A DNA stretch of 64,000 nucleotides from Dactylorhiza incarnata (lineage: Eukaryota > Streptophyta > Magnoliopsida > Asparagales > Orchidaceae): contig JAWHQI010000075.1 in NCBI GenBank assembly GCA_033032865.1, positions 5,084,001 through 5,148,000 of the forward strand, read 5' to 3'. This document shows, one piece after another, positions 1,052 through 60,040 of the stretch (position 1 is its first letter; each line of letters opens with the position of its first letter). The notes under the pieces were generated by a model that saw nothing but the letters and a program-made list of their open reading frames with translations, searched no databases and was not told where the DNA came from. A program made the position numbers and the translations under genes.

Positions 1052-2224
1052 TGTTGGAGCATGCGTTTCGCACTCTTCCAGTTTGATAATAACAAAATCC
1101 CGTTTGTATTTGATTCTATTTTTATTGATGGCGTGCAGGCAACATGTATGAGATGTTCACAATTCTGATTGAAGCTCAATTTAACTGTATGGAGAATTTC
1201 GATGTCGGAATTTCCGACATCTACTGTCGCCCATGCGACAGGACAGAAGTTGCAGCAATAGCCCGCACTAGAGCACGACGAGCAGCAGTTTGGCGCTGTC
1301 GGAATTCCAACAGCGATGTCGCCCAGGCGACAGGACAGAAGTTACAGCAACAGCCCGCACGACACCACGACGAGCGGTAGTTTGGCGTTGTCGGAATCTG
1401 ACAGCGATGTCGCCCAAGCGACAGTGAAAAACTATAAATTAATTCATTTTGTTCGTGCATTCCAAGCTTTGAAGATTCTAAGTCCTTTCCTGAGTGCATA
1501 TGAACCAGAGAGCTCCAGAACCTCATCAACTCCCATTTGTGCTTAGAAGGTTTGAGATTGAAGACGAGATCGGACGCGTTTCTACATCAACGATCATCTC
1601 GAGGCTTCAACCTTCCTTTCAGAGATCTGAATTTCTAGGGAGTTCTTCTTTTCATTTGGTATTTTCATTTATATACATTTCACTTTGTATTGGTAGGGAA
1701 ATCATCTCCTTGTGCATGACGTCTAAGTCCTTGCGTGTCTTAGGGGAAAATCGCTTCCTTGTGCGGAGCGTCCAAGTCCTTGCGTGGCTTGGTAGGAAAT
1801 TGTGGCCTTGTGTGCTACGTCTAGATCTTGGGAAGATCTAGAGGATAGGATTGGGCTTGGTCTAGGGAGAGACAAGTGATAACCTTCCTATCCTTGGGAG
1901 AAGGATTGGTAAACTCAAATTGTTAAAAGTTTATTATCATATTTGTGCCTTGATCTTAAGCATTGTTAAGATCATTTTTATTGTATGTGAATTTCTTAAT
2001 TAATGAAATTATGACTTTCTTTTAATTGCAAATTTTATTGTTTAATTTTTAACTTCAAAATTTGTGTTTGAATTAATTTAAAAATTTCATGGTTTGAAAA
2101 TTTTTATAAGTGATTTTTAGAAAAGCAAAATTTGTTTTAAAAAATTCTTAAGTAAAAAATCATAATTTAAAAAGGCCCTTATTCACCCCCCCCCCCCCCT
2201 CTAAGGGCGCCACAAGATCCAACA
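1052..2224 (+). repeat. 3' LTR of SIRE-like Copia element H
   Basis: Starts TGTTGGAGC directly after the polypurine tract and ends AGATCCAACA, the same termini as the LTRs of element A. U3 holds repeats of a palindromic word, CTGTCGC-CCAT-GCGACAG (1224-1241), TGTCGCC-CA-GGCGACA (1317-1332) and a third copy (1408-1423), just upstream of a TATA-like box (TATAAATT, 1433-1440). A C14 tract (2186-2199) lies near the 3' end, as in other LTRs of this group. The partner 5' LTR is outside the window, so no target duplication can be checked. Confidence 0.85.
1224..1423 (+). promoter_or_regulatory. U3 palindromic word array of element H
   Basis: Three inverted repeats with the core TGTCGC...GCGACA at 1224-1241, 1317-1332 and 1408-1423, spaced about 90 bp apart. 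The last ends 10 bp upstream of the TATA-like box at 1433. An additional CGCTGT...ACAGCG inverted pair sits at 1294-1315. The position directly upstream of the presumed core promoter suggests a binding-site array; that role is inferred. Confidence 0.6.
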
Positions 2225-2911
2225 CGCTCCAAGGGTAACGATCCTTCTCTTTGGTCTTAGTGCGGGTTTGTTCATTCTCATTTTTGATATGATTGCATAT
2301 GATAAATCTCTTCTGCTAATTAGTGGAGGTCACGACTTCATTTGGTTCGTTAGAATCCCGAGTCGATTGTGTCCATCGCCGACATGAAATGCATATAGAA
2401 ATCGGGTAGTCGTGTGAATTTAGGCATTGAGTGTGAAGCCTACCCGTGGCCGTAGACCCGGATTGGTGATGCGTGTTTTGATGTTGCATTTAGGTTAAGC
2501 CTAGTATGCGTGTTGGAGAATGACTCCTTGTTGTTGGGTTTTGGAATGAGAGAGCTCATGGAGTACCCATCAAAAGCCATATGGATGTGTAGTAGAACAC
2601 AAACCTTCACCACGAATAGGCGTGGAGTGACTTGAACCTCCTACGTCGGTAGTGCGTGTGAATCTTATGCCCTCATGTGAGGATAAGGTGCGTAGCATTT
2701 TGATGTCGTAGTGTTAGTAATCTTGAATGCTCGCGGGCATGTCAAATTGGTAGCATTTGTATATGTTAAGATGCTCATGGACTGAGGTAAAGTCGTGCCC
2801 GCATCATGATGATACACGGTTATATGAGCACGGACAAAAGCTTAACTGAACCCATTCCATGCAGTTCGGCTTGAGATTACTTCTCATAAATGCTGATCGA
2901 ACATGGGAGAG
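2225..2911. other. Unassigned non-coding DNA
   Basis: About 690 bp into which element H was presumably inserted. I see no reading frame, repeat array, LTR terminus or RNA gene that I can support. The sequence is of moderate GC content and looks like degraded repeat DNA. Confidence 0.4.
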
Positions 2912-3093
2912 TGAAGGATTAAAGAGTACTCTAATCACCTAAATGGGGTGAATATGTGTTTAAAATATTTTCTCTTTAAACTGTGTGGACTATTTTTAAT
3001 TTAGACAAAGAAAAATCGCACACATCACAGAATAGCACACAGAGATTTATAGTGGTTCTCCAGATTATGGGTACTCCAATGTCCCCCTCCACC
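2912..3093 (-). repeat. Left fragment of LTR I, F-like R/U5 side
   Basis: The stretch around 2938-3090 resembles the R/U5 side of the F LTRs (47200-47420 and 54290-54510): a GGGGTGAATA start, then TTTAAAATATTTTCT, later TTTATAG-GGTTC and GGGTA-TCC blocks in the same order. It therefore looks like the 3' part of an LTR read on the minus strand. It is interrupted at 3094, and LTR-like sequence appears to resume at about 9428. The exact terminus near 2912 is a guess. Confidence 0.35.
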
Positions 3094-6000
3094 TGTAAGA
3101 CCCCATTTTTTTTCTTTTTTAAACCCGGGTCTTATGCCCAGAACCGCCGCTTTGCGGTGACACCATCACTCCGGAAGGTTGCCACCACAAAACGCCGATC
3201 CTACCGGCCATATCGATCACAAAGAAGAAAAGTATATTTGAACATATAGAGAAGCTAAAGTCCACATCACATGTAATATAAAACCAAAAGGGTAAATGTC
3301 CACAGATAATAACTGAATAAACAAAGATAACAATAATAAAGGGTGCATGCCATGTACATCATATCCTCACTACAAGGTCACTCGCGAAAGCAAACTGCTA
3401 ATCACTCACTGATCCTAAAACTGGTGCTCCTGTAATAGACTGGCCCGCCTCCATCTGCACCGGCCTCTAGTGCTGCTGCGTTTCTTCGATCCCCAAAAAT
3501 GATATGGTCCACCGACCGTTAGTCAAAAAGACAAAGCCTTATGTTCCCCACCCCTCCCCCAATGGCTCCTAGGCACCGAGCGGGAGGATGAAGCGGAGGA
3601 CAGCAAGGGGTATAAACAAAGCAGATGACGACGGATCTTGTCTACAGGAAATGTCTACAACTACACATGTGTATATGAATAATTGAAGTAGTAATAGAGC
3701 GTGGTAAAGAACAAGTAAAGAACAATAAGTAAAGATAAGTACATAATAGAAATGTAACCATTGATTTATAAGAATGCCCATACAAACCTATAGACCAAGG
3801 GGTCATTTAGCAGGGCCTATCGTATAAAAAGTCCCATAACCAATTTATACGATATGGGTAGGGGTTGAAATGCAGTGCGTATGCCATGACATGCAGAGTT
3901 ATGCAGTTTATGCTATGTTCACACAAGTGCAACTCACACACTTCGACTTCATGCGCACAGACCTTTAGTTTCCCCTTTTTGGAGCTAGCAAGACTCCCAC
4001 GATACTCCCGTAAGGCAAACGAAAGCGGTGGGTTGGGCCTCGCCCACCTCTAGGTTGGTATTCACATTACCTAGCCTAGACCTATCGTACGCCTCAACGC
4101 AATACCGCAGAGCATCTGCATACTCTTACTGGCTGGACCACCAGACTTTTCTTGGCTAAGTGCAAATCCACACTTGCCGAGTCAGCGTATTACCGTCGGT
4201 GTGAACGACCGTCAATACCGAAGACCCACCACCTTTATGCACATGCAAACATGTTTACCATCTATCTCCGAGCCATAAGCTCCTCGTGCTAACCCTCCTA
4301 TCACAATAACCTTCCGAGCCACCGGCTCGCCGGACTAACCCGTCCGCACCAACACAAATTACTGAGTCACATGCTCACCAAACTAATTTGTCTGCTGCTA
4401 CAACCACCGAGCCTACCGCTCGTAAGAACAAACCGACTAATATACCCGTAACAATGGGGTGTGGGTGAGTGTATTATTAAGCTAATATTGTACATCAATT
4501 TATCCCTACAATTTATGGTTAATCCTGGACTTCCCGAGGTCTACCCTGTGAGGGGCTCGCAGCGGTACTAGGAGTTATGATGGGATTACACCCCAAAGCT
4601 CTCTTTTTAAGACACTTAATGTTATTGGTATCTACCCATAAGAATACCCTCCTTTTTGTCATTACACTTGGATTACCCTAAGTACTTTATGACTTTCCAG
4701 GGGAAAGTCGATTAACCGTCAATCCCGAGCACAAGCTTACCCTTAACTCACCAAACACACTCTCATCACCTAAACTCCTTTTTGGTGACCTTCAATCTTT
4801 TTAACTAGGCTAGGCACACCAACTAACTTCCATTCCCACCTACTGGTCTTCAATTTAATCAATTTTGCAGTTTTACTATACGTAGACCTAGTGAGATATA
4901 TAAGTTGCATAAGAGGAGGTACTCCAAATATTCATCCAACTGACTCAAGATTATTACTGGGAGTCTATCATGATATTCTAAGACTAAATCCAGAGAATTT
5001 TATTTTTCCTTAATTATTTGGCATTTATTATAATTTCTCCAACATTGGCCAAACATGAAATTGAACATGAAGTGTAAGATCTTCTTATGATATGGCCCCT
5101 ATAACATTATGGAAAATCTATGATATCAAAATAATAGTAAATACATAATATCAAAAAAATTCAACAAGGGGTTGACCTCTAATTATAATATTGAATAAAT
5201 ACCCCAAATTGAAAATTAAAGAAGGAACCACCAAAAATACTTGTCCAAAAATTATTGGAAAATTACCAGACCTTTATATTGATTAGAAAAGTCTACTGAC
5301 TAAATTTCAGAATTTATCAAAACTAATTAGTCACATAAATAATTATTCCAAGTAAACCCACACTAGGAAAACTTGTGAAGTAACTTACTGATAAATAATT
5401 CCTAAAATTTAACAAAAATTCACAGAGCTTTCTAATGCCCTAAAATGTCCTACCACCAAGTTTTATAATTTTCCAGAGGGTATTTGGCCCTCATTTGCTT
5501 AACATATTCCTAAGAAAAAATAGATAGCTTGTGCATAAAGTGCTAACTAAATTATTTCAATAATTACACAAAAATTATCAGAGGTCTATATCATGATTTT
5601 ATGTAATCGACCAAACTTTCATCAACATCCAAGATAATTTGAGCATGTAAATTTCTTTTATAAGAAGGTTCCCCCAAAAAGGTTATAACCTAAATCAGAG
5701 GGGATAATTGCTCCTAAAATTTCCTAGGGCATATTTACACCCTATGAACTTATCTACCAAGTTTCATGACCATTCAAGGACATATGCCCTATGTCCTTCA
5801 CAAGGCTTAAAGTGCAACCATAAGGTTAGAACTAGGGTCATAAGGCATATCCACCCCACATCACCCCAAATTTACTCATGGGGGTGTCTTATGTGATACT
5901 AAACCAGTGGCCAAAGTTTCACACCACTGATGAGATTTAACCACCTAATTCCATCATGTGCACTTTTGACCTAGTTTGACCAAACTTGGGTTTACCCAAC

Positions 6001-8470: not shown

Positions 8471-9427
8471 AAGAGATATAAAAAATCAAGTTTATTTTTG
8501 AGAGAAAAATAGTAAAAGAAGTTGTAAATATTTGATTATAAATTTTGGTTATGTAAAGTTCAATTATTTTTTTGTACTATTAACTAAATTACTTATGCTT
8601 TTTTTGGCGCGACGGTGGCGTTTCTTCCGGCGGGTGCAAACGGAGCTTTCGAACCGGAGGGCAGAGGCTGGGGATCGAAACGGAGTTTTTTGCTCCGTTT
8701 CTATAGCGCGGCGGGTGCAAACGCCGCCGCCCGCCATTTGGTTAAGCGCCTTGCGGCGGCGTTTGCCGCAAACGCCGCCCGCCACCGCCGCGCCAAATGA
8801 AGCCTTAGTGATCAAATATAATTTTGTTCTCTAAATATTTAATATTTGTGATCAAATTTTAATTTATCGCAAAATAAATTATTTTAATGACCAAACTAAT
8901 TTTTCGTCACAAATAATCTTAAAATTTGATTTAATGATTATATTTTCATTTTTTGTCATTAATTAAGTCACTAGATTTATTTAATTATCAAAATCTAATT
9001 TCATCATAAATTAAGTTAATTATATATTAAGAAATACTTTCATTTAAGAGTGAAAATTTAATTCGATGGTGATTAGTGACTAATATATATTTGTCACAGA
9101 TAATGTTAAAGTATTTTTTTTCGTGACCAAATAATTTGTTCACTACAAAGATTAATTTAGTGACAAATATTTCATTGGTCACTAAAGAACAATCTTTAGT
9201 GACCAATTTTTATTTTTGTCACTACATAATAACATTTCGTGACGATTAAATAATTTTGGACACTAAAATTTTATTTTTGTGACTAAATATTTTTCCAGTC
9301 ACCAATAAAATGAAAAAAAATATTAATTAGTGACCGACTTCAAATTTCGTCACAAAAAGCACACTTTTAGTTATGAAAAATATTTTGTCACAAATATTTC
9401 GTCACCAAAAGTCATTTTTCTTGTATG
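8471..9427. mobile_element. CACTA-type DNA transposon end (right terminus)
   Basis: From about 8805 the sequence is dense in short subterminal motifs GTGACAAAT, GTCACTAA and TAGTGACC in both orientations. It ends with TTTTTCTTGTA at 9415-9425. Read on the minus strand this end is TACAAGAAAAATGACTTTTGG, close to the usual plant CACTA terminus except that the outer CACTA bases are altered. A GC-rich patch with inverted GGCGCG arms lies at 8605-8800. No matching left end and no transposase were found, so it is a fragment or non-autonomous copy. Confidence 0.45.
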
Positions 9428-10678
9428 ACTCCTCAGAGTCCTTGACTCATACAACTCAAGAACTTAACAAGTCCCCTACCTCAGATCCACTTCTTGGATC
9501 CTACCTCAGGTGCAAACAACAGTCTTACCTCAGAGTAATAACACTCCTATAGCTCAGATTCACCGCTGAATCCTACCTCAGGTCTTCACAAGACCCTACC
9601 TCAGGCTAACAACAAAGCCCTACACTCGGGCCTTCTCCCCAGCCCTACACTCAGGTTGACAGCACAGCCCCACCTCAGATCTCAGATAGATCTTACAACA
9701 GCAAAAAATAAACAAGTTGGTTTACAAGATTTAGACTCTAAAAAATATTGATGTTGTAGCTTGAGTCTTCTTAGGTCTTTTTGAGTAGAAAGCCTTCTTC
9801 AGCAACAACACTGGATCAATCAATGGATGTGCTTTTGTACCAGGATCAGTGATGAGCTTCCTTGAGAATAGAAGTCTTCTTACACTCTAGAGTGAGAGCT
9901 TTCTTTTTCTTGAAGCTCGACTTCTTCTTCATCTTCTTGAGAAAGCTTGTTTTTTCTGTTTTATTGCTTTTGCGACCAACAAGCTTTTTCTTTCAGATTT
10001 CACAAAATGATCATGATCAAAAGGTTAGGGTTTTTTGACCCTCTCTTATCCTTTTATAGCCCTGACACTACAAATGACCGAGACCTTAAAAAGTTTGTCT
10101 CAGAGCACTTTTCAAAAGTGATTGATTTGACATCTGCTTTTGTCGTCTCCATTAATTTGAAATCCCATCTTCCGAGCTTGACAAGATGATATCGTTGTGT
10201 GAAGATAGTTGACACAATGATATATGACTTAGCAGATTTTTCTTGAGCTCTTGCAACGATATCGTCGTGTGGAGCTTGTTGACACGATGATAAATAACTT
10301 AGTAAACTTTCATTGAACTTTAACAACGATATCGTCGTGTGAAACTTGTTGACACGATGATAAATGACATAACAGATTTTCCTTGAGCTCTTACAATGAT
10401 ATCATCGTGTGAAGCTTGTTGACATGACAATATCATCGTGTTCTTTTTATTATCATGCTGATAGTTAACTGACTCTTTCTTCCCCCCTTTGTGAGTGATC
10501 ACAACGATATCGTTGTGTGAGTGTCATACACACAACGATATTGTACTTAGAGATATTGTACTTTATCTCCGAACATACATAGGATGAATGATGTCTCATT
10601 CTGCTTATGTCACAATAGATAGATATTAAATACAAAATGTAATTAATATTGACTAAGGGAGTTCTCCAAATCTGGAAC
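9428..10678 (-). repeat. Right fragment of LTR I (promoter side)
   Basis: Non-coding DNA that behaves like the U3/R portion of a minus-strand LTR. A TATA-like box (CTTTTATA on plus, 10051-10058; TATAAAAG on minus) is followed upstream, in the minus sense, by a 70-bp-period repeat array at 10188-10470 and by an 18-bp perfect palindrome at 10500-10517. Repeated CCTCAG motifs mark 9427-9690. It probably continues the fragment at 2912-3093. The outer boundary near 10678 is set by the start of the next LTR and not by a visible terminus. Confidence 0.4.
10188..10470 (-). repeat. 70-bp tandem repeat with ACGATATCGT palindromes
   Basis: GATATCGT or its variant recurs at 10188, 10258, 10328 and 10398, an exact 70-bp period. 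Each unit holds the palindrome ACGATATCGT or a one-base variant followed by GTTGACACGATGAT. A related 18-bp perfect palindrome, CACAACGATATCGTTGTG, lies at 10500-10517. The array sits upstream of the minus-strand TATA-like box at 10051-10058. Confidence 0.75.
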
Positions 10679-12046
10679 TGTTGAGAAAAAAATCCTTTTG
10701 ATTTAACTTAACAAATTAACAATAGGTGATTTTACTCCCTAGGGTTATTACCCGTATTGTATAGTAAGGGTAATTTGGTCATAGAAGTATTAGGAAGTCA
10801 GTTGAGTTAAAGTAATGCGAAAGGCAAACTGAAATCATGGAGAAAATTATCCAGAGTAATTATGCGCCGACTAGAAGTCGACGCAACGTCAACTAAAAGT
10901 CGACATTACTCTGATTAGATATCAGTGCAACTTCAAAAAGTCATGTCGACGCTTCATTTCATTGGTAGTCACGCAACGTCGACTAGATATCGACGCAGAA
11001 GGCAGAAGTCGATGCATACATTCTTTAAAGATGGAGTCGACGTAACATTGAATGATATTCGGCACATAAGTTAGAATTTGGAGTCTATGTTCTTTATCTC
11101 GACGGACACAGTTGGAGTTTCTATGGTGATCAGGAAGTAATCAAGAAGTTAGTCTTACTGCCAACGCGATATAAGCCTATAGGGTCGCACATAAGAGCGT
11201 TTGGAGAAATTGGAGAAAGGATTGTGTTGGCCTTGCTCATATTGGATATGAGTGATAGGACCAATCCTATGACTATTTGGAATATAGTTGGTTCGGGAAG
11301 ACTGCTCCTAGATATTGTGAATATTGTATGGAGCATGTCAAAAAGGTTTCTAGACGATATTGTGAATATTGTTGAGAAGAATTCAAAACGACATTGTGAA
11401 TGTCGTCGTGACAGATAGCCTGTTTTCGGGATCACAAGACGATATTGTGAATATCGACTCATGAACAATGTCGTCGAGATTATCTCGATTATATGGACTA
11501 CAAGGAATTCGTCGAGAATGTCTCGGAGATTTCGTCGAGAGTGACTCGACGATTTCGTCGAGATGTCTCGACGATTTCCTTGAGATGTCTCGACAATTTC
11601 GTCGAGATGTCTCGACGATTTCGTCGAGATGTCTCGACGATTTCGTCTAGATGTCTCATCGAGTTCGTCGAGATGTCTCAACGAGTTCGTCGAGATATCT
11701 CGACGAGTTTGTCGAGACTGTCGCGACAAAATACTATCGAGACTGTCTCGACGAATGATTATTTTCATCGAGATGTCTCGACAAATCCGTCGAGACTGTC
11801 TCGACGGTTTCATCGGAACTGTCTCGACAATTTCTTCGAAATGTATCGACGAATTCGTTATGATGTCTCGACGAATAAGTGAACCCGACGAAACTATACA
11901 GTTTGTTTTAACTGGGTTTGCAGATAGAGGAAACTTCTGTCTACTTTATACTCTTGGGTATATAAGGCCAGATACTTTATGTTTTCTATTAGTAGAGGAA
12001 GCCCGATAAAAAGCGGGGAGAGCGACAAAATCGGGAGGGCGGTCCC
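10679..12046 (+). repeat. 5' LTR of Copia element E, part 1 (split by element A)
   Basis: Starts TGTTGAG at 10679. Its first 110 bp align well with the terminal U3 of the F LTRs (both contain TTTGATTTAACTTAACAAAT and GTATAGTAAGGGTAA), which supports this as a true LTR terminus. U3 continues with GTCGACGCAACGTCGA-type words (10870-11040) and a 22-bp palindromic array (11514-11880). A TATA box lies at 11959-11966 (TATATAAG). Element A interrupts the LTR at 12046. It resumes at 35361 and ends CCCAACA at 35851 just before a tRNA-Met primer site. Assignment of this start to E is inferred. Confidence 0.65.
11514..11880 (+). repeat. 22-bp palindromic repeat array in the U3 of element E
   Basis: About 14 degenerate units with consensus GATTTCGTCGAGATGTCTCGAC (positions listed here in two halves: GATTTC, then GTCGAGATGTCTCGAC). 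The second half is an inverted repeat, GTCGAGA-TG-TCTCGAC, so each unit can form a hairpin. The period is 22 bp in the best part (about 11538-11660) and decays after 11700. The array ends about 80 bp upstream of the TATA box at 11959. Apparent proteins across it are artefacts of the repeat. Confidence 0.8.
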
Positions 12047-13242
12047 TGTTGGAGCTTGTGTTCCACTTCTCTTAGTTTGAGAAATATCAAATCACACTAT
12101 GTATTTGATCTTGCTTGTGTTTATAGTGTGCAGGTACTATAGTTATATAACCCTATGAACAGGATGCTGATTGATGACGATTCTCTGAAAAGAGAGCTAA
12201 CACCCCGCGTTAGTAGTTAACGCCCCGCGTTAACTTCCGTCGAGAAAGAATCCGTTGAGATGAAATGTCGTCGAGAGGGAATCCGTCGAGAAGCTAGAGA
12301 CAACGCCAGCGTTGACTCTTCACGCCCTCGTTGAGTGACGATCTGCCACGATCTGCCACGATCCCGACGGTTTGCATGATCTCAGCAACTGTCGTACACG
12401 ATGCTTAACGCTGGCGTACACGATGCTTAACGTCGGGCGTTAGCTCCCGTGTCTATTTAAAGACCTGATTTCATTTGCTCAAGTGAGATGCATTGAAAGC
12501 TTCATTCCAGAGATCTGTGAGAGCATTTCATTCTGAATTTAGAGAGAACTCCCAACACCAACATTGAGGAACAAGAGTGAGAAGGAGATTTCCAACGACA
12601 AATTTGAAGAAGGACGCTCGCTTCAACTCCGACGTGGTCATGGCGTATCTTCAACATCTCCTTCAGCGCTCTTCATTCAAGGGAGTCTTTTGTTCTGATT
12701 TTATCTTTATCTTTTTATATTTTCTTGTAACGGTAGTGAATTCGCCGCCTTGCGTGTGGCGACTAGGTCCTTGTGCGGCTTAGGGGTAATTTGCCGCCTT
12801 GCGCATGGCGAATAGGTCAAGGGTAGATTTAGGGGGTGGCTAGAGGCTTTATCTGGGGATAGATAAGCTATAGCCAACCGGTCCTTGGGAGAAAGACCGG
12901 TGAAGGAACAAAAAAGTGATTTTTATCTTGTCGCCTTTATTTCAAGCGTTATTGAAATTAAATGTTTTGTAATCTTCTTCTTGAAATAAATAATACTCAT
13001 TTTATTATCTCTGATTGTCTGAAAATTTATTTCACTTAAGATTGTGCAAGTAAAATCACTTTGAATATTTCTGCAAAAATATTTTTGAGGAGATAACGCC
13101 CGACGTTAACTATATAACGCCAGGCATTAGCTACAGAGCCAAAAAGTTTTTCTGTTTTTATAAAATCTGTCAGTTTACCTTAAAAACAGTAAACCCCTTA
13201 TTCACCCCCCCCCCCCCTCTAAGGTCTCCATCAGATCCAACA
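12047..13242 (+). repeat. 5' LTR of element A
   Basis: 1196 bp, TGTTGGAGC to GATCCAACA. U3 has several palindromes with the core TAACGC..GCGTTA: GTTAACGC-CCC-GCGTTAAC at 12216-12234, CAACGC-CA-GCGTTG at 12301-12314, and variants at about 12405 and 12427. A TATA-like CTATTTAAAG lies at 12453-12462. Two more variants of the word lie at 13092-13140, and a C13 tract at 13205-13217. In the first 310 bp I counted roughly 17 differences from the 3' LTR, about 5%. Confidence 0.95.
12193..12445 (+). promoter_or_regulatory. U3 palindromic word array of element A (AACGC..GCGTT)
   Basis: Five or more imperfect and perfect inverted repeats with AACGC/GCGTT arms in about 250 bp, ending just upstream of the TATA-like box at 12453. 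The equivalent array in the 3' LTR is at about 34325-34562. The word is also found in the gag frame (14950-14963) and in the 3' UTR (about 32727-32755) of this element, but not in neighbouring families. Confidence 0.65.
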
Positions 13243-13244
13243 CT

Positions 13245-13256
13245 TGGTATCAGAGC
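13245..13256 (+). other. Primer binding site of element A (tRNA-iMet)
   Basis: TGGTATCAGAGC lies two bases after the 5' LTR. This is the usual complement of the 3' end of plant initiator tRNA-Met used to prime minus-strand DNA synthesis by Copia elements. Confidence 0.9.
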
Positions 13257-22823: not shown

Positions 22824-22897
22824 AAGTTTTATTATGATATTAGTTGAATATTTTACTCCTTCACTTGATAGATGTAACTGTTATGCGAGGGCAACCA

Positions 22898-23598: not shown

Positions 23599-23600
23599 GG

Positions 23601-35355: not shown

Positions 35356-35360
35356 ATCCC

Positions 35361-35851: not shown

Positions 35852-35852
35852 G

Positions 35853-45384: not shown

Positions 45385-45386
45385 CT

Positions 45387-46592: not shown

Positions 46593-46597
46593 ACTAC

Positions 46598-47149: not shown

Positions 47150-48889
47150 TGAAAGTGCACATTGTGCATCTGAGAATTCTCTAGAGGGGGGGGGGGGGGG
47201 TTAATAGAGATTTAAAATATTTTCTATTCTATTTATGCACACACAATAAAAACACCAAGTAGTATGCATTCAGCAAAACTAAAGACAGAATAAATTAAAT
47301 GCAGTTTGCTGAAAATAAACACAAAATAAAAAAGCAGGGACAGCACAGAAAATCACAAAGCAAAGACGTAAAAATTTTTATAGAGGTTCCCCAAAATGTG
47401 GGTAGTCCTCTCTTCTACCTCCGTGGTAGGATTGCACAACCTGTGCCTGAGTCTTTTGATAAGGAGACTCTTAGAACCACTGAGTCTTTTGATAAGGAGA
47501 CTCTTAGAACCACTGAATCTTTTGATAAGGAGACTCTTAGAACCACTGAGTCTTTTGATAAGGAGACTCTTAGAACCACTGAGTCTATTGACAAAGAGAC
47601 TCTTAGAACCACTGAGTCTTTTAATAAGGAAACTCTTAGAACCACTAAGTCTTTTGATAAGGAGACTCTTAGAACCACTGAATCCTTTGAAAGAGGGATT
47701 AATAAAACTCTTTACAGCGTAAGGAATAAGGAAAAGAAAGAAGGAAGATGAAGAAAAGAATTCTGTTCTAAGAATTCTTTAGAAGCTATTTCTCAAGTTC
47801 AGCTTCTGTTTTTCTTTCATTGGATCTGTTGATTATGAACCCTTGCTTATGATTGTGATGATTTGCAAGGGTTATTTATTCAGATCCTTTTCTCTGAAAG
47901 CTTCTTAAAATCTGACTGTTGTGTGATGAAGAAGAAGAAGTAACTATGTATATTTCCTTTGCAGAGAGAGACCTTGTTTTCTGTCTTAGGGCTAGAGAGT
48001 AGAAGGAGAGAAAGACCTATTCGACATAATACTATGATGATCAATCTTTTTTTTGAGTTTCTCTTCTTCTGCATACTTATTCTGTATGATTGAGATTTCA
48101 AAAACCTTTCTTCTTTTGGGCTGTCCTAAAAAGGAATTGATCTTTCCCACTTATTTTTCTTTCTTCTTTTGTTCTCGACCCGTCCATCACTTTTTGAATA
48201 CCTTCCAAGAATGATTTGATGTGTCCTGGAAAGCTCCATTCCATTCTTGGCAATAAATGAGCCATTGGAGAACTATCTCTAGCCTTGCAGTCCTTCTGAA
48301 AATGTCTCAAAAGGACAGCAGAAAAAGCTTCCTTTTTTGACTGTATTCGGCGCTGCATCGACATCATCATTCTTCATGTCGATGCACCTCTGAGTTCTTA
48401 TTGACGTAGCTTCGGTTTTCTTCTTAGCTTTGGCTAAACTTAGATGTCGACGCTACATCGATTCCTTATCGATGTGTCCGTCAAGTTGAAGACTTGGACT
48501 CTGAGCTTTAACTTCTGCGTCGAATTATAGTCGAAGTTGCGTCGACTTCTTGAATGACTTCGACAAGCTCTTCCTTCTGCGTTGAGTTACTTTCAATGTT
48601 ATGTCGACTTGAATTATACTTCGATAGGCTAAATAAATTGCTTGGACTTCTAGTCAGAGTTGTGTCGATATCAAGTCGAAGTTGTGTCGACTTTCATTCA
48701 ACGCAAGTCTTAACTTAACTTATTTTGTGATTGTCTTGACTTGGTCTTGACACTCTAAGGTGAGTGTGACATTTTGAGACATTTAATGACCAATTTACCC
48801 TTACTATACAATGCGGGTAATATAACCTAAGAAGTGAAATCACTTATAGATAATTTGTTAAGTTAAATCAAACGGAGTTTTTCCCAACA
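47150..48889 (-). repeat. 3' LTR of element F
   Basis: 1740 bp. On the minus strand it starts TGTTGGGAAAAACTCC and ends GTGCACTTTCA. It has a 33-bp tandem array with seven full units (47444-47690), a G15 run on plus (47186-47200), and TCGACG words in U3 (about 48440-48710). Confidence 0.93.
47444..47690 (-). repeat. 33-bp tandem array in the F 3' LTR
   Basis: Seven full units and a partial one. On plus each reads GAGTCTTTTGATAAGG then AGACTCTTAGAACCACT, with inverted GAGTCT/AGACTC arms. The 5' LTR has only three full units (about 54544-54643). The four-unit (132 bp) difference accounts for nearly all of the 135-bp length difference between the two LTRs. The apparent 11-residue-repeat protein across it is an artefact. 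Confidence 0.9.
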
Positions 48890-49966: not shown

Positions 49967-50663
49967 AATGTGTCTAAGCAGCTTCTAGAAGTGAAACTGC
50001 ACGCGCTTATCATGTCGACGTTGCGTCAATTAGAACTCGACGCCCCTTCGAATTTGACAAGCAATTATTCATTCGACGTATCTAAAAAGGAAGCTTTCGA
50101 AGCTAGCGTCGAATAGAATTAGACGGTACGTCGAATTCTATTCGACGCAACTCTGAATTAGCAGTTGTGTGTTGCTTTCGGAGCAGGCGTCAAGTAGAAT
50201 TAGATGTTACGTCGAATTCTATTCGACACAACTCTGAATAAATAATTCTATTTTCTTAGAAAGTTCTTGATGTTTTTCCCAGCAATGATTTTTATTAAAA
50301 ATAATATTTATACTATTACTTTCATAAACTAAAGAAGATAATATGAAGATTTAAAGTAGAAATCACTCCACTTTTGGATTTGAGTCTTTATTAGACAGTA
50401 GCTCTTCCTTCCCTTCCCATCCTCTCTTAGGAGGGATCCTACTTATTCATGCACAAGTAGTTCAAACATTAGAAGGAACTCAGGTTACCTTGGGCCCTTT
50501 GCTTTTACCATTATAAGGTTCTATGAAAGAGTAGAAAGGTCTTTCATAATATCCTTTTGGATGGCAGAGAGTGAGTTTATCAAACCTTGATTTATTATTT
50601 TGATACTTCAGATGTGTATAAAATGTATCTAAATATAATAAATCAGCAGAGTGTTTTATTATT
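49967..50663 (-). other. Interior of element F with an 81-bp duplication
   Basis: No supported gene. The sequence TACGTCGAATTCTATTCGAC starts at 50127 and again at 50208 (81-bp offset, two copies), and other TCGACG words lie at 50014-50060. These match the word type of the F U3, so the region may be LTR-derived or regulatory. Confidence 0.5.
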
Positions 50664-51159
50664 CTATTTTTTTCCTTTAGCCTTTTGATTGTTGTTGTTT
50701 AATTTCTCTGTATTACTCTTGCTTAGAGATTTCTTTTTATTGTTTAGGATTACTTTATTAAGCGCAATTATTTTATTTGGATTATTACTGTCCTTATCCT
50801 TAGTTAGTGCACTCCTCTCACTTGTTTGAAGATCACTAGATCTAATAAATCTAACTAGATTTTTCCAGGCTGGTGATGAGTCCAATTTATATAGGGTTTT
50901 TGGACTCATCTGGGCTTGTTTTCACGCACATGCACTTCACTTTCTACACATTATTGCTTATATTGCATTGATACTCCAGATTATACGAAGTGCACCTTTC
51001 AGGCCCATTTTGGTGCGCATTTGCGCTCCATGTTGTTGTGGGTAGGCACATGGTGCTCCCCAACCCTTTTCTGTATTTGGATATTGCTGGATGTGTATTC
51101 CCAGTTGTTTATTGTGCTGTGAAGGTGGACAGATCTCCATTTAGCCCAAATTCCATTTC

Positions 51160-51480
51160 TGCATGAATCGCACGGTCGTGCATTTTCTTGACGCACGATC
51201 GCTCCGACCGTGTGTGCTTATCTGCTGGAAGAATGCTGTTCTACCCATGATCATGTGATTTGTTCACGCACGAGCAGTTCGCCCGTGCGCAAAGGAAACA
51301 TACAATCTCTCCTTGGTGGCCCGTTTTCGAGTTTTCTGGATTTGCTTGTGTGTTTTTACGCACAGTCGGCTTCAGCCGTGCGTGAGTAAAATGCACGGGC
51401 GCACTTGCTTCTTCTTCCTGGGCTCCTGTTATTTTAATATCACACGGTCCACGCACGATCGTGCGTTCGACCGTGCGTGA
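51160..51480 (+). promoter_or_regulatory. U3 palindromic word array of solo LTR K (GCACGATCGTGC)
   Basis: Repeated GCACGGTCGTGC, CGCACGATCG, CGACCGTGCG and a 16-bp perfect palindrome ACGCACGATCGTGCGT at 51451-51466, ending about 20 bp upstream of the TATA box at 51500. The word is not seen in other families of this window. Confidence 0.65.
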
Positions 51481-52079
51481 CCAATTTTGACCATTTTTCT
51501 ATAAAAGCTGCAGATTTCGCCCTATCCAGATCGACCATTTTTCCCGCGCCCAAGAGCTCCAGTTCCGCCCTTTTTCGCCGCTCCATCGCCGCCCACCTTT
51601 GGGAGGAGCTTCGGCCGCCATTCTCTTGCAAATCTAATGCCGGAGCATCCTCTAGGCCTCCTCCATCGTTCGAGCACTCCCAAGCTCCATTTTAAGAGAT
51701 TTCTTGCTGCACACGTGAAGTTCTCTGGTGAGGTTAGGATCAAAGAAGATTGACGGAGAAGACGGGCTAGTGGTAGTGAGAGCTTCAGAGGCTCCAGACG
51801 ACAGTTAGAGCCCGAGCTCGGACAAGGCTTGACAACCCTAGATTCCGACCGTGAACCTCCGATGAGTCTCCGCCCTTTGGTTGTAATCTCACTCCCTTCA
51901 TTTTGTAGTATTGTTTTCCTTGATTATTTGTGTGTATGAACGATGATTGCTAAACCTTATCATTACATTTAAGTTTATTTCATGTCTATGCAAAATTACT
52001 TTGTGGTTTATGCAAGTGAGGAGCGCCCCCATTCCATCCTCCACTTCGCCATCACCCTCCATTCCATTACGCTAGCCTA

Positions 52080-52400
52080 CTCATCCATTACGCGTGCCTA
52101 CTCTTCCATCCTCCAAGCTAAGCGGTGCTAATGGCCCATATAATCCACCTCAACTCTGCCGGTGCGAACCATTCCATACGCAAGCCTACTCTTCCATCCG
52201 CGCAGTGAAGCGGTGCTAACGGCCCGTATAATCCATTCGCCAAGCCAAGAGGTGCTAATAGCCCTCAAACCTTTCCGCAGTTACACTCACTTCATCCGCT
52301 TGCCTTCTCATCCATCCGCCTAACGAAGCAGTGCATAACGACCTGCATAGTTTCCATCTGCCCGGCGAAGCAGCGCATAACGGCCTGCATAGGAGTAGTT
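52080..52400 (+). repeat. Degenerate repeats in the R/U5 of solo LTR K
   Basis: Units of the form AAGCGGTGCTAACGGCCCGTATAATCC or GAAGCAGTGCATAACGACCTGCATAG (given here as two variants) recur about six times with variable spacing. No coding potential. Confidence 0.6.
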
Positions 52401-53894
52401 TAGTTCTTTTCTTTTATTTTCCACAATCCAAATCACCCCTTTTCCTTAATCCATCCAACCTAAAGGACTTCAATCTCAAGTCCTTCCTCCTTAGATAACT
52501 CCACCTTACTATGTTCCTTAGAGATTCGATACTTGAGGATTCACTCCCACATTTATGTTACTTGAACGATCGGTACACTACCGTGTCGCGCCGCAGTCTC
52601 GCTCCCGCCTATAGCGGTGTGCTAGATTTGCGCATTAGCTGGTCTACTAGTGATTTTTGTGTTAGTGCATGGGTCTTCTCCTTGACCTAAGTGTTTAAAT
52701 CTCATGGAGAGATTTTGTGTAATATCTTTGAGCTTTTGACTTCTCTCATTAAGAGAGTCCTCAAAGGCTTTTGCCTTTGTTAGCTCATCTTTTAATTTTA
52801 AATTCTCATTTCTTATTTCTATTAATTCTGTTTCTTTACCCTGAATTTTATTTTTCAAATCATCATTTAATGAGTATAATTCATCCTTCTTAAAATTTTC
52901 TAATTCTTCCCTATTTATTTCTTGTTCTTTTTTTTTTATTTTGAGGAAATCATTGCAAAATTCTTTAAAGAAAATATAAAAATCATCAGAATTGAAATCA
53001 AAATCATCAAACATAGAAACCTGTTCTTCTTCATCATTAGAAGATATCCCCAATGCCATCATCCAGGCTGCTTCAACATCTTTTTCTTCATCACTCTCTG
53101 ATGAAGAAGAGCTTGACTCTGCTTCAGAGTCACTCCAGGTTTCAGCAATGAAACCTTTGCCCTTGTTCTTGTCTTTCCTCCTGAATGACTTCTTCTTCTT
53201 CTCATCCTTGTTGCTACTCCTGTCCCTTTGTTCCCATGGGCACTCAGGGGCTATGTGCCCTGACTTGTTGCAGGAGAAGAAAATCACCTCCTTCTTTGGA
53301 GTCTTATCATATCTGGGCTTTGAGCTCCTCTCTCTTCTCCTTGAATCTTCTGTCTTGACCAATTTTCTGAATCTCCTTGCGAGGAGACTGAACATTTCAT
53401 CTTCAGGAGTGGAGGGATTTCCTTTAGTAGCTTTCAGAGCAAGCCTCCTTTGGATAGCAGTTGAGGTTGTCTCCTTTGCCTCCAATTCAGCTCTGCTCTT
53501 CAGTACATCTCATATGATTTGAGCTTTCCTAGCAAAGCATCAGTTGAGATTTCTCTATGGCATCTGGACTCTCTGATGCCCAGATCCTTAAATCCCATGA
53601 TCTAGGGAAGAACACGAGGATCTTATCATTTATCTCTATCAAGGATATTTGCATGTCCAGACTCTTCAGTTCACTAATAATGATGCTGAATCTGTCATAC
53701 ATTTGAACAACACTTTCCTCAGCTTTCTTTTGAAAGTTCTTATATTGGGATTTGAGAAGGGACTTCCTGTCATTTATTTCATCAGAACTCCCTTCTACCA
53801 TTCTTGAAAGGGATTCCCAGATCTCTTTTGCTGATTGGCAGTCAGCTACTTTCTGGAAAGTGTCATCTGACATTGTGGAAACCAGAATGTTCAT

Positions 53895-54228: not shown

Positions 54229-54240
54229 CCTCTGATACCA
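54229..54240 (-). other. Primer binding site of element F
   Basis: On the minus strand TGGTATCAGAGG lies two bases after the LTR end, the tRNA-iMet type site with one variant base. Confidence 0.85.
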
Positions 54241-54242
54241 AT

Positions 54243-55847
54243 TGAAAGTGCACAATGTACCTCTGAGAATTCTCTAGAGTGGGGGGGGGGGGGTGTGAAT
54301 AGAGATTTAAAATATTTTCTATTCTATTTGTGCACACACAATAAAAATACTAAGTATTATGCATTCCACAAAACCAAAGACAGAATAAATTAAATGCATT
54401 TTGCTGAAAATAAACACGGAATAAATAAGTAGGGACATCACATAAAATCACAAAGCAAAGACACAAGAATTTTTATAGAGGTTCCCTAAAATGTGGGTAG
54501 TCCTCTCTTCGACCTCCCTGGTAGGATTGCACAACCTGTGCCTGAGTCTTTTGATAAGGAGATTCTTAGAATTACTGAGACTTTTGATAAGGAGACTCTT
54601 AGAACCACTTAGTCTTTTGATAAGGAGACTCTTAGAGTCACTGAATCCTTTGAAAGAGGGATTAATAAAACTCTTTTACAGCGTAAAGAATAAGGAAATG
54701 AAAGAAGGAAGATGAAGAAAAGAATTCTGTTCTCAGAATTCTTTAGAAGCTATTTCTCAAGTTCAGCTTCTGTTTTTCTTTCACTAGATCTGTTGATGAT
54801 GAACTCTTGCTTATGATTGTGATGATTTGCAAGGGTTATTTATTCAGATCCTTTTCTCTGAAAGCTTCTTAAAATCTGGCTGTTGTGTGATGAAGAAGAA
54901 GAAGCAACTCTGTATATTTGCTTTGCAGAGAGAGACCTTGTTTTCTATCTTAGGGCTAGAGATAAGAAGGAGAGAAAGACCTATTCAACAGAATACTATG
55001 ATGATCAATCTTTTTTTAGTTTCTCTTCTTCTGCATACTTATTCTGTATGATTGAGATTTCAAAAACCTTTCTTCTTTTGGGCTGTCCTGAAAAGGAATT
55101 GATCTTTCCCACTTATTTTTCTTTCTTCTTTTGTTCTCGACCTGTCCATGACTTTTTGAATACCTTCCAAGAATGATTTGCTGTGTCCTGGAAAGCTCCA
55201 TTCCATTCTTGGCAATAAATGAGCCATTGGATAACTGTCTCTAGCCTTGTGGTCTTTTTGAAAAGGTCTCAAAAGGACCGCAGAAAAAGCTTCATTTTCT
55301 GACTGTATTCGACGTTGTGCCGACTTCATCATTCTTCATGACGACGCACCTCTGTGTTCTTATCGAGGTATCTTCGAATTTCTTCTTAGCTTTGGCTAAA
55401 CTTAGATGTCGAAGCTACGTCGATTCCTTATCGACGTATTTGTCGAGTTGAGGACTTGGACTCAGAGTTTTAACTTCTGCATCGAATTGTAGTCGAAGTT
55501 GCGTCGACTTCTTGAATGGATTTGCAAAGCTCTTCCTTCTGCGTCGAGTTCCTTTCGACGTTACGTCAACTTGAATTATTCTTCGACAGACTGAATAAAT
55601 TGCTTGGACTTCTAGTCAGAGTTGCGTTGATATTAAGTAGAAGTTGCATCGACTTTCATTCGACGCAAGTCTTAACTTAACATATTTTATGATTGTCTTT
55701 GGTCTTGACACTCTAAGGTGAGTGTGACATCCCGAGACATCTAATGACCAATTTACCCTTACTATAAAATGTGGGTAATATATCATAAGAAGTGAAATCA
55801 CTTATAGATAATTTGTTAAGTTAAATCAAAAGGCGTTTTTTCCAACA
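54243..55847 (-). repeat. 5' LTR of element F
   Basis: 1605 bp. Minus-strand start TGTTGGAAAAAACGCC and end GTGCACTTTCA. TATA-like AATAAATAA on minus (54836-54845) with TCGACG/CGTCGA words upstream in the minus sense (plus about 55300-55660). G13 run at 54281-54293. The 33-bp array has three units here. Confidence 0.93.
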
Positions 55848-56344
55848 TGTCCTCTCTATATTGAGGATCTACAGAAATAGAAGGGAAGTATGACTTCCGC
55901 TTCAAGTATTTTCGTTATAGAAATAAACCTTTCTGCTCCTTTATCTTGGGTATGGGATACCGGATGCGGTTCTCATATTTGTACAAATGTGCAGGAACTG
56001 GGAAGGAGATGAATGCTGGGTAAAAGAGAGGTAGACATGCGCATTGGAAATAGAGCAAGAGTTGCTGTCATCGTTGTTGGTGTATATCGTCTTTCTTTGC
56101 CCACTAGGCTTGTAATTGAATTAGATAACTGTTATTTTATTCCAGCCATAACTCAAGACATTATATCCATTTCATGCCTTGACATGAAGGGTTTTTCATT
56201 TATAATTAAGAAAAATTGTTGTTCAATTTTTATGAATGATGTTTGTTATGGTGTAGCCCAATTTTTAATGGTTTATATGTTTTGAACTTAGACCATCCGA
56301 TCTATAATGTACAGAGAATACTAAAAGACTAAAAACTAATGACT
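55848..56344 (+). pseudogene. pol: pol of element E, protease
   Basis: Resumes directly after F. The aspartic protease signature WVWDTGCGSHICTNVQ (catalytic D-T-G) lies at about 55947-55994, followed after a stop by RIGNRARVAVIVVGVYRL, IELDNCYFIPAITQDIISIS and KKNCCSIFMNDVCYG. This is a Copia protease region, with a TAG at about 55883 and a stop near 56003. A TGA at 56282 ends the frame before the integrase. Confidence 0.8.
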
Positions 56345-56844
56345 CGAATCCTACGTATCTTTGGCATTGTCGTTTGAGCGATATAAATGAGAAACACATA
56401 TCCAAGCTCTATAAAGATGGAATGTTGGACTCATTTGATTATGAATCATTTGAGAGATGCGAGTATTGTTTATTAGGAAAGATGACGAAAGCCCCTTTCA
56501 CTAGTTGTATTGAGAGGCCTGATGATCTCTTGGGTGTGATACATAGTGATGTATGTGGACCTATGAGTTCTATGGCTAGAGGTGGGTTCTACTACCTCGT
56601 TACATTCACTAATGATTTCAGTAGATACGGATACATGTTTCTTATGAAGAACAAATCTGAAACCTTTGAAAAGTTCAAAGAGTTTAAAAATAAAGTAGAG
56701 AATCAACTGGGAAAAAGAATAAAAGTACTCCGATCCGACCAAGGTAGCGAATATCTGAGCCATGAGTTTCGTGGTCATCTAAAAGAGTGGTATTGTATCA
56801 CAACTCACTCCGCCCGGAACACCACAACAAAATGGTGTGTCTGA
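56345..56844 (+). pseudogene. pol: pol of element E, N-terminal integrase
   Basis: The pre-integrase zinc region YLWHCRLSDINEKHIS and CEYCLLGKMTKAPFT (HHCC-type) precedes the core: HSDVCGPMSSMARGG (first Asp, near 56552) and VLRSDQGSEYLSHEF (second Asp, near 56736). A one-base frame slip near 56810 moves the sequence containing the catalytic Glu into the next frame, which begins SERRNHTLLD. Confidence 0.88.
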
Positions 56845-58200
56845 GAGGAGGAATCATACTTTGTTAGACATAGTACGGTCAATGATGAGTCATGTAGATT
56901 TGCCCATTTCCTTTTGGGGTTTTGCTCTAGAGACTGCTGCTTTTATACTAAATCAAAATCCGACAAAGACGGTTCAAAAGACACCAAATGAGATATGGAC
57001 TGGGAAGCGTCCCAGTATGTCTTTCATTAAGATTTGGGGCTGTGAGGTATACATGCGACGTCAAATTCCTGATAAGATGGAACCCAAGTCAGATAAGTGT
57101 TATCTTGTAGGATATCCTAGAGAAACCAAAGGTTATTACTTCTACCTGCGATCCGAGGGCAAAGTGTTTGTCGTAAGGAGTTGTGTTTTTCTAGAGAATG
57201 AGTTTCTATCTAGAGAAAATGCCAGGGTAGAACTTAAAGATGTTCAAGGACCACAAACTATAACTATGAATGAACCCGAATCGGAACCTGATCAAGGACT
57301 ACAATCTGTTGTAGATGGAGAACCTGCTCAAGAAACACAAGTCCTACGTATATCTGGTGGACCTAGAAGTAGGTCTGAAAGATATGGATTTCTCATGTCT
57401 CAAATAGGTAGTGTGTTGCCTATGGATCATGATGATGAGTCTGCAACCTACCGAGAGGCTATGAATGAACCAAACTCAGAGAAGTGGCTTGAGGCCATGG
57501 AATCTGAAATGGACTCCATGTATGCAAACCAAGTTTGGATCTTGGTGGAACCACCTGAAGGTGTACGACCCATAAGGTGCAAATGGGTCTTCAAGAAGAA
57601 GACCGACATGGATGGGAATGCACAGACATTCAAAGGTCGATTGGTGGCTAAAGGTTTCAGGCAAATTCATGGTGTTGACTATGATGAGACCTTTTCCCCT
57701 GTTGCTATGGTCAAGCCCATCAGGATTCTACTTGCTATTGCTGCGTATTATGACTACGAGATCTGGCAAATAGATGTCAAAATAACTTTCCTTAATGGAA
57801 ACCTCTTTGAGGATGTGTATATGACACAACCCGAGGGTTTTGTATCTCCAAATGAAGCCACTAAAATATACAAGTTGCATTGATCCATTTATGGGATGAA
57901 ACAAGCTTCTCGAAGTTGGAATCTGCGTTTTGATGAGAAGATCAAAGAGTTTGGTTTCATCAAGAACGAGGATGAGTCTTGTGTTTACAAGAGGATTAGT
58001 GGGAGCATTGTTATATTCTTGATATTGTATGTAGATGACATACTGCTGATTGGGACTGACATTCTGACCCTGTAAGCTATTTAGAATAGCCTAGGGGACT
58101 GCTTTTCTATGAAAGACTTGGGTGAAGCGACTTATATACTTGGTATTAAGATATATAGAGATAGATCAAAGAAGTTGTTGGGTTTAACGCAGAGTACATA
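56837..58200 (+). pseudogene. pol: pol of element E, C-terminal integrase and RT (cut by G)
   Basis: SERRNHTLLDIVRSMM (catalytic Glu), FWGFALETAAFILN, YLVGYPRETKGYYFY, then RT: NQVWILVEPPEGVRPIRCKW, KGRLVAKGFRQIHGVDYDET, PVAMVKPIRILLAIAA and IWQIDVKITFLNGNL (catalytic Asp). A TGA at 57881 replaces an Arg codon. The frame continues SIYGMKQASRSWNLRFDEK and LYVDDILLIGTDI (active site, about 58027). A TAA follows near 58073 and then MKDLGEATYILGIKIYRDRS. Element G begins at 58201 after LGLTQSTY. Confidence 0.9.
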
Positions 58201-58765
58201 TGATGGTTTAAATTTTAAAAGCTTTGCAAAAACCTTTTCGTGATGAGATTAGAATTAAGTGGGCGTTCTCGAGGAGTTTCGCGAGTACTCCTACTTTGAG
58301 AAACTAACCATTATCCTACTTCGATGAATAGAAGTAACGGTCTTTCCTTCTTTCGGAATATCGACGATTACACCCCGGCTTCGGCGCCGAATTCTCTAAA
58401 TATGTAAATAGAAAAGGAGAGAGTTTTTGCAAGTTTTTGTAATTATTTATCCAAACTAATCTTTCGATGAAGGCAAGCGCACCTTATCGCGTATAGTATA
58501 GGATATTTTTTTAGAAAATATCAAGGTCGTATTTTTCCAAGGACGTGTTGATTATTTTTACTTTTTAAGAACGCGCTATTATTTTATCGATGAAATGAGT
58601 GATTAATTTTATAAAGTTAAAAGAGCGATGACGATGATAATTAAGCAACTACATGCGTTAGCGAAAACAAAGAAACAATTATAAGGAAAAAGAGGTGCAC
58701 ACTAAATTAAAAACACACGCATACTACGGAATTGAAATGACAGAAATTAAAGGACATAAATTGCA

Positions 58766-58990
58766 ATCTCTACCCGAACGGGTAGAGGAGAAGTAAATGC
58801 GTGAGCGAGTTCTACCCAAATGGATAGAGGGGAAATAAATGCGGTGCAAGTTCTACCCAAATGAGTAGATGGGAAATAAAAGCAATCTCTACCCGAACGG
58901 GTAGAGGGGAAATAAATGTGGTGCAAGTTCTACCCAAACGAGTAAATGGGAAATAAAAGCAATCTCTACCCGAACGGGTAGAGGGGAAAT
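58766..58990 (-). repeat. About 40-bp repeat with CTACCCG-AA-CGGGTAG palindromes
   Basis: TACCC-containing units start at about 58771, 58813, 58853, 58890, 58931 and 58967. Alternate units contain the perfect inverted repeat CTACCCGAACGGGTAG (58770-58785 and later copies), and the others a decayed form. It is located downstream of the TATA box, within the transcribed part of the LTR. Confidence 0.8.
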
Positions 58991-59629
58991 AAATACAGGA
59001 CAATAATAAACTACGCTATTAAATTAAAATCTAAGTTAACAAAAAAAAATTTATCCACCTACACACACACACACTTACAATAAATGAAAAACTAAATTAA
59101 AAACAAAAACAATAAAATTTACACTCATAAACTCACACACACAACATGAACAAAAGAAGAACAAGAAGAACAAGAAGAGCAAGAACAAAAAGAACAAGTA
59201 GAACAAAAAACTTTCTTATATATATATATATTCATATTACAACTTTTTAAAGAAAGACTAAACTTGGGGAGCTCAAACAAGAGCAAGGAAATACATATAC
59301 AAAAAACTCACAAACACTCACAAGAAAAACTCACTAGAACACTCAAGAAAAACTCACAAACTCTTACTTAGGTTCTAATTTTTATGAACTTTTTAAACAA
59401 GGGAGAAGCCCCCTTATTTATAGACAAGAAGGTGGGCTGCAATAAGAAAAAAAATCAGGTATTTAGGACCTAATGGGAAGCAGCTGGAGGTTCTAGAAGG
59501 AGTGTGCTGGACAAGCTTGCTGGAAGGAGAGCTGGCGGGTTGGGGTGCGAATATCAGCTGGAAGTTGGCAAGTTTGACTTGAGCGCTGGTCTGGTCTCAG
59601 CGGGCAGGCACGTCAGCGGCAGGACTGTT

Positions 59630-60040
59630 CGTTGGACGCAGTGGAGAGTTCGTCGAACGCAGTGGAGAGTTCGTCGAACGCAGTGGAGAGGGGTTCAGCG
59701 AATGCCGCTCGAGAGAGTTCGTCGAACGCAGCACGGGGTTCGTCGAACGTAGCGCGGGGTTCATCGAATGTAGCTCGGGGAGAGTTTGTCGAACGTAGCT
59801 CTGAGATAGTTCGTCGAGCGCAGGGCGGGGAGAGTTCATCGAACACAGGGCGCCTTTTGTCGAACGCAGCTCGGGGAGAGTTCGTCGAACGCAGCTCGGG
59901 GAGAGTTCGTCGAACGCAGGGCGGGGAGAGTTCGTCGAACGCAGGGTGCCTTTCGTCGAACGCAGCTCGGGGAGAGTTCGTCGAACGCAGGGCGGGGAGA
60001 GTTCGTCGAACGCAGGGCGCCTTTCGTCGAACGCCTGCAG
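59630..60040 (-). repeat. U3 array of element G (GTTCGTCGAACGCAG units)
   Basis: About 17 units of 20-26 bp built on GTTCG-T-CGAAC followed by GCAG and a G/A-rich spacer. The GTTCG/CGAAC arms form a perfect short palindrome. The array lies upstream, in the minus sense, of the TATA box at 59415-59422. Apparent Ser/Arg/Asn-rich proteins across it on both strands are artefacts. Confidence 0.85.

Follow-up and report, generated by a model that had tools for sequence, protein, structure and literature searches.

Repeated cis-regulatory boxes that differ between subfamilies occur in the U3 region of the retrotransposons Tnt1 and Retrolyc1, which we liken to the present case by description only, and the VANDALs with which it has also been compared are DNA transposons. 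In maize Sireviruses, Bousios et al. reportedly recognized in 2016 the palindrome-rich, fast-evolving cis-region of the long terminal repeat (LTR) as a hotspot of small interfering RNAs (siRNAs); small-RNA data stand behind that case, whereas the likeness of the arrays described here comes from sequence. These arrays lie in a 64-kb window of the Dactylorhiza incarnata genome (contig JAWHQI010000075.1, positions 5,084,001 to 5,148,000), which consists of nested plant LTR retrotransposons and in which self-comparison identified the LTR pairs of four elements (A, B, D and F); they are made of palindromic, CpG-containing words repeated within the U3 of different LTRs, labelled A to I and K in what follows.

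The closest precedent, which the original prediction for this DNA did not name, is that of the repeated motifs (RM) reported for Sireviruses by Bousios et al. in 2010, i.e. high-copy, palindromic and family-specific U3 words with CpG islands, the distance from island to TATA box averaging 37 bp and extra copies lying in the linker; comparison of RM with known cis-regulatory sites recovered mostly those of stress-related factors (PMC2829016, in its available parts). The same parts confine RM to Sireviruses and report them missing from classic Copia elements, unlike the arrays found here, which extend to a non-Sirevirus Copia element (E) and to a Gypsy element (G), so that the design is wider than this source says (PMC2829016). 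The analogy originally drawn was to the VANDAL/VANC system, and it holds in that family-specific short motifs occur there in tandem repeats varying between related transposable elements; it differs in that the motifs, YAGTATTAY for VANC21 and AGTTGTCC/AC, are non-palindromic, the former being described from non-coding DNA, and in that the binding protein is known there (PMC5735166, likewise in part).

Palindromic CpG arrays in the U3 regions

The original prediction held that ten LTR types each carry their own CpG-containing palindromic word arrayed just upstream of the TATA box, and the words are indeed visible where and as it described them. Our blind scan looked in 636 scan windows of 500 bp for a 5-nt CpG arm that recurs as a dyad, with a gap of at most 8, and took the best of 20 dinucleotide shuffles per scan window as control. 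A CpG dyad word with at least three copies was found in 33 of the 636 scan windows, compared with 3 of 636 for the shuffles, and 30 of the 33 fall inside six of the arrays named before (four in H, two in I, seven in E, six in C, four in F and seven in G). The other three, within 58501-59200, correspond to a further palindromic array outside the earlier finding, TCTACCCGTTCGGGTAGA at 58752-58994 on the minus strand, which belongs to no assigned element and has a TATA of its own strand some 140 bp downstream, at 58613. CpG-free words reached at least three copies in 4 of 636 scan windows, all within 58501-59300. Two copies were reached in 46 scan windows, including those of A, D and K with two exact copies each; this is weak evidence, because off-array scan windows also reach two (D's R-U5 with TCGCC, 9; 4001-4800 with CGAGC, 4; the pol of B at 20401-21300 with CGGAG, 5). 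B was not recovered as a dyad array in the blind scan, and its word CTCGCGAG occurs twice in its U3 against 0.06 expected, none of 300 shuffles being as high. The arrays are thus real, clearly so in H, I, E, C, F and G and more weakly in A, D and K. Plain dyad density had been tried as a statistic and was dropped in favour of the repeated-word scan, array-less scan windows also scoring well with it.

The position claimed for the arrays stood in nine of the ten LTRs. Six end about 6-90 bp from the TATA box: H (1203-1424, plus strand; TGTCG dyad, four copies; TATA 1433), E (11508-11874, plus; TCGAG dyad, nine copies; TATA 11959; a distal GTCGAC block lies at 10877-11036 in the upstream part of U3), A (TAACGCC/GGCGTTA in the 5' LTR at 12049-13240, plus; two exact dyad copies; TATA 12453), C (GAGATCGCCC/GGGCGATCTC in a solo LTR at 30502-31542, plus; CGCCC dyad, five copies; TATA 31299), D (46092-46430, minus; AGCGC dyad, two exact copies, and six units at no more than five mismatches; TATA 46086) and K (GCACGATCGTGC in 51113-52551, plus; two exact copies; TATA 51500). 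The distance is about 120-205 bp in I (word ACGATATCGT, 10182-10517, minus; ACGAT dyad, three copies; TATA 10058; assigned to no element), B (CTCGCGAG and TCGACGAA in the 5' LTR at 16003-17148, plus; TATA 16851) and G (GTTCGTCGAAC, 59627-60034, minus; 17 units at no more than two mismatches; TATA 59422), and per-unit word conservation is biased throughout, units being chosen by their match to the word. F departs from this arrangement. The TATA-like site proposed for it at 54836 reads AATAAATAA, and a good TATA at 54477, with its counterpart at 47382 in the second LTR, follows a CpG-free 33-bp repeat array, with about seven copies at 47447-47690 and three at 54542-54653, some including GACTCTAAGAGTC; besides a lone GTCGAA at 54508, the main cluster of CpG words (55308-55664, minus, 5' LTR) begins some 0.8 kb further upstream.

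With 30 of the 33 strongest scan windows inside named arrays and a TATA within about 205 bp in nine of ten cases, each array could be a promoter-proximal cis-regulatory module in U3 holding many two-fold symmetric sites. Their reader would be a dimeric, sequence-specific DNA-binding protein, either a host regulator or a factor evolving with the element, and we see an even chance that the arrays are putative dimeric binding sites acting in this way on the LTR promoter. The stress-factor sites recovered for Sirevirus RM are a precedent for this reading.

Element lineages and words held in common

The original prediction also regarded the families as independent and concluded that descent cannot explain the common design. 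For three of them this does not hold. The Sirevirus polypurine tract (PPT) AGGGGGAG adjoins the 3' LTR in H (1042), A (34168) and D (38158, minus), with totals of five PPT octamers at or upstream of the 3' LTR in H, four in D and three in A; the attachment site is AT/TG in A and H and TT/TG in D, and the Sirevirus primer binding site (PBS) TATCAGAGC is exact in A (about 13244-13248) and reads TATCAAAGC, with one mismatch, in D, that of H falling outside the window. The 3' LTRs concerned lie at 1059-2224 (H, plus; the PPT fixes the start and the end is approximate), 34176-35357 (A, plus) and 36962-38157 (D, minus; 5' LTR at 45386-46591). The CGG-CCG core described for Sirevirus RM is present by sequence in the words of H (TGTCGG..CCGACA) and D (TACCGCC/GGCGGTA) and absent from A's TAACGCC (PMC2829016, in part). 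Over a piece containing the reverse transcriptase (RT), A and D agree at 74% of positions, and E's RT piece shows 30-31% identity to them, the comparison covering A and D alone.

The common design nonetheless extends to unrelated LTRs, namely those of the Sirevirus Copia elements A, D and H, the non-Sirevirus Copia element E and the Gypsy element G, so that the argument against descent survives for E and G. The 5' LTR of E begins at 10679-12046 and resumes at about 35361-35850 past the nested A (plus; PBS-like GTGGTATCAGAGC at 35852), and its pol lies at 56308-57883. The Gypsy order of domains, with RT and RNaseH before the integrase, is present in B (gag, RVT_1, then rve below the Pfam cut-off; plus strand, 3' LTR at about 27976-29121) and in G (RT_RNaseH, H2C2 just below the cut-off, and rve), whose integrases are 36% identical over 92 aa; G's array stands downstream of the minus-strand Gypsy RNaseH/integrase fragments and its LTR ends were not found in the window. 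F (minus; 5' LTR 54243-55850, 3' LTR 47151-48889, target site duplication (TSD) TGTCC) has a Copia gag, no pol domain in the pieces scanned, and at its 3' LTR junction the terminal tract ATGAGGAGATTG instead of a Sirevirus octamer, two octamers lying further upstream; on these features we would not place it among the Sireviruses. The solo LTR C is flanked by the TSD ATGTT, and K, inside F, is a possible solo LTR with the TSD TTTAT and 4-nt inverted ends, the single candidate from a solo-LTR search and one that could be a chance match.

Contrary to what had been claimed, the words do share sequence across families. CGTCGA is present in at least three copies in five of the ten U3s (E 24, A 3, B 7, F 7 and G 12), a spread that none of 200 shuffle sets reached; TCGACGAA occurs at least twice in E, B and G, exceeding all 200 sets; and the 11-mer GTTCGTCGAAC, without mismatch, is present in each of B's two LTRs and has nine copies in G. 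Two of the five cross-family tests beat all 200 shuffle sets (6-mers with at least three copies and 8-mers with at least two), the settings with 5-mers, 6-mers at two or more copies and 7-mers not rising above shuffles, and because three of five fail we regard the sharing as suggestive. A word common to Copia and Gypsy elements is as expected of a common binding site. We do not claim a core CGCC..GGCG (gap at most 6) shared by H, A, D and C: it was over-represented in H (1 vs 0.00 in shuffles), D's LTRs (6 vs 0.28) and D's internal DNA (2 vs 0.02), as well as in unassigned DNA (2 vs 0.14), and the pattern did not cover C's gap.

Within this framework the arrays would grow and turn over through tandem duplication, so that related LTRs can carry different words. 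E and F have the start of the LTR in common, one of F's LTRs giving 87% across 105 bp and its partner 82% across 124 bp, and F's GTCGAC occurs five times in E's distal U3; the TATA-proximal arrays of the two differ, which we read from these alignments as array turnover between LTRs sharing a part.

Own words inside the elements and the gag site

CpG 6-mers occurring at least three times in a U3 were also searched for in the elements' internal DNA, the counts being set against trinucleotide shuffles. Three elements are enriched for their own words, which number 24 in A against 10.0 in shuffles, 35 in D against 9.0 and 43 in F against 8.3, none of 100 shuffles being as high in any of the three; with 8-mers the excess persists in D, at 22 against 1.2, and in F, at 16 against 0.3, and weakens in A (4 vs 1.1, p 0.06). 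H's 1-kb internal fragment contained none of its own words, and an own-word excess in the post-pol region of B (194 vs 103.5) was discounted since C words are enriched there too (147 vs 90.3). Off the diagonal, in a 6-mer comparison of 80 cells, p values of 0.03 or less were given by C words in B's post-pol region (0.01) and, at 0.03 each, by A and G words in F, I words in G, and D and G words in unassigned DNA. Longer words added further such cells, including B and C words in G and E words in F; with 8-mers D words are enriched in A (0.03), as expected between related families. Outside D's LTRs, D words are densest in two windows of D itself (43536-43735 and 40011-40210), and outside F's LTRs F words are densest in a window of F's linker (50013-50212); the six windows richest in A words outside A's own LTRs do not include A's gag window and are other families' U3s and one F-linker window. 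In D one block of the word stands in the AT-rich linker at 40187-40217 (minus; fold z -3.45), and in F GTCGA dyads at 50013-50225 (minus) form the densest F-word cluster outside the LTRs. Both linker sites rest on CpG-word counts, because coverage by any 7-mer is unexceptional there (33 of 705 windows as high for D, 16 of 296 for F) and gives no support.

The internal copies in A and D occupy the same place in gag, directly after GLGY and before the second zinc knuckle, as a TAACGCCAGCGTTA hairpin at 14937-14966 in A (plus; fold z -5.84) and at the homologous position 43703-43742 in D (minus; z -4.11). D's site consists of forms of CTACCGCC..GGCGCTAG and CTAACGCC..GGCGGTAG, the second block keeping A's TAACGCC half. 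D-U3 7-mers cover 51 of its 60 bases, the next family reaching 22, and none of 705 other D windows is as high; A-U3 7-mers cover 33 of 60 bases of A's site, a level reached by 5 of 649 other A windows. Since the two sites are related by descent, they represent one site varying with the LTR word, as is clear in D, and not two independent events. The protein P0001, the best among 120 listed relatives of D's Gag (59% identity), reads SESCRPATTTVAGDSE at this site, and its degenerate codons could, at the protein level only, spell H's TGTCGCC-N(0/1)-GGCGACA twice there; the comparison was made post hoc, after the peptide had been seen, and one other H-word-compatible place (gap at most 5) exists among the 120 listed proteins (65,829 residues). 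H's word had no match in the other 60 of the 61 listed proteins with a recognisable site, for whose families the LTR words were not at hand, and the tested words of A and D matched at the gag site in none of the 61. Under P0071 and P0005, the named relatives of D's Gag include the orchid Platanthera zijinensis, with 72% across 28% of the query and 48% across 73%. Own-word copies inside gag are possibly new: the available parts of PMC2829016 make no mention of RM copies inside gag, and they do cite from earlier work an inverted repeat, conserved where gag meets pol, that could be related to the gag site.

A, D and F keep the same word at secondary sites too, in the 3' part of gag and in the linker, which suggests that the word's putative reader acts along the element. 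Carried further, in Sirevirus-like elements U3, a fixed gag place and the linker may all bear the family's own word and change together as new families arise, so that a co-evolving reader, element-encoded or host, would know its own family, unrelated Copia and Gypsy elements having converged on the design. On the sequence evidence we hold this doubtful, and weight it lower because A's gag site shows just a slight preference for its own U3 over that of D. A VANC-like system, in which an element-encoded anti-silencing protein recognises the word of its own family, would account for the own-word enrichment inside A, D and F and for the repeat turnover between the LTRs of E and F with their common start; given that the VANC21 motif lacks two-fold symmetry and is reported from non-coding regions (PMC5735166, in part), we consider such a system extremely unlikely.

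Copies in both gag and U3 could instead be signals in RNA, family-specific hairpins of the genomic transcript serving Gag packaging or dimerisation. The gag hairpins of A and D do fold well and, as is established LTR biology, the 3' end of the transcript includes U3. On the other hand, mismatches between arms show no preference for sense RNA, with 30 G-U against 29 A-C in 75 units (F and B excluded), a test whose power is limited by decay after insertion; single families lean either way (2/6 in both G and E, 5/0 in the array at 58752-58994). The overall balance also counts in favour of sites read in DNA. The other copies in F and D lie in the linker, and the solo LTR C and the Gypsy element G have the same design. 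We consequently find RNA signals very improbable as the explanation.

Folding, divergence and the proposed binding sites

RNA folding of 18 chosen segments was below shuffles in many of them (E, z -10.8; C, -5.2 and -4.4; H, -4.6) and weak in I (-0.45), one B segment (-1.03), one K segment (-1.95) and A's U3 (-2.00). In all four LTR pairs CpG bases differ between the LTRs more than other bases do (0.154 vs 0.029 in B's U3), as expected of methylated DNA. Both results agree with the main rival explanation, in which palindromes transcribed in the 3' LTR or by read-through would fold, feed siRNA production and mark the LTR for methylation, as does the description of maize Sirevirus palindromes as small-RNA hotspots (PMC5311732 and PMC10760457, in their available parts). 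Such silencing hairpins are compatible with binding sites; they would account for the host's consequence and not for the elements keeping their words, and with I folding like its shuffles, other segments folding weakly and no sense-strand G-U excess, we judge them unlikely to be the main explanation.

Several observations weigh against arrays maintained as binding sites. Own words are not enriched inside E (44 vs 46.4) or G (29 vs 21.9, p 0.08); all four LTR pairs diverge slightly more in U3 than in R-U5, with no sign of recent constraint; covariation among C units stays within the range of shuffles, 48 of 500 being as high; a mismatch recurs between the arms of D's word; and D-U3 7-mers cover 28 of the 60 bases of A's gag site, a little fewer than A's own. 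The slightly faster evolution of U3 and the covariation no higher than shuffles are, together with the tandem periodicity in E, G, C, I and H, what self-expanding palindromes would give, neutral slippage and template switching multiplying and perfecting quasi-palindromes while position and CpG content follow the tolerance of U3 for repeats. This process leaves unexplained the placement upstream of TATA, the scarcity of CpG-free dyad words (4 scan windows against 33), the exact 11-mer in B and G, and the own words in gag coding DNA, and we think it rather improbable that it suffices.

Other features of the window touch single elements. A 97-bp tandem array of about six copies follows B's pol at 22884-23659, 27 consecutive G occupying 22960-22986, and an antisense open frame occupies 24409-25056 (minus) in B's post-pol region. 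D's R-U5 contains, outside U3, a 47-bp tandem pair with TCGCC dyads (45721-45812), and D's words are somewhat dense in a GC-rich block at 8603-8797, which may be a small DNA transposon and whose ends, TTTGGCGCGACGGTGGCG/CGCCACCGCCGCGCCAAA, form an inverted repeat with one mismatch. A viral-contig search with D's pol returned no relatives. Flanks of about 60 bases joined across the D insertion give one open frame, and those joined across the F insertion, as trimmed, give a CCHC knuckle and then a stop; in our judgement the joined flanks resemble Copia gag, as the Pfam zinc-knuckle match at 46848-47204 also suggests.

Should the design hold true in Gypsy and classic Copia elements as well as in Sireviruses, palindromic CpG arrays would be a general feature of plant LTR promoters and not a peculiarity of Sireviruses, and the common TCGTCGA core would be a concrete probe for the proposed reader protein. 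A matching word in gag would be an unusual double constraint, on protein and on DNA at once, that can be checked in any plant genome.

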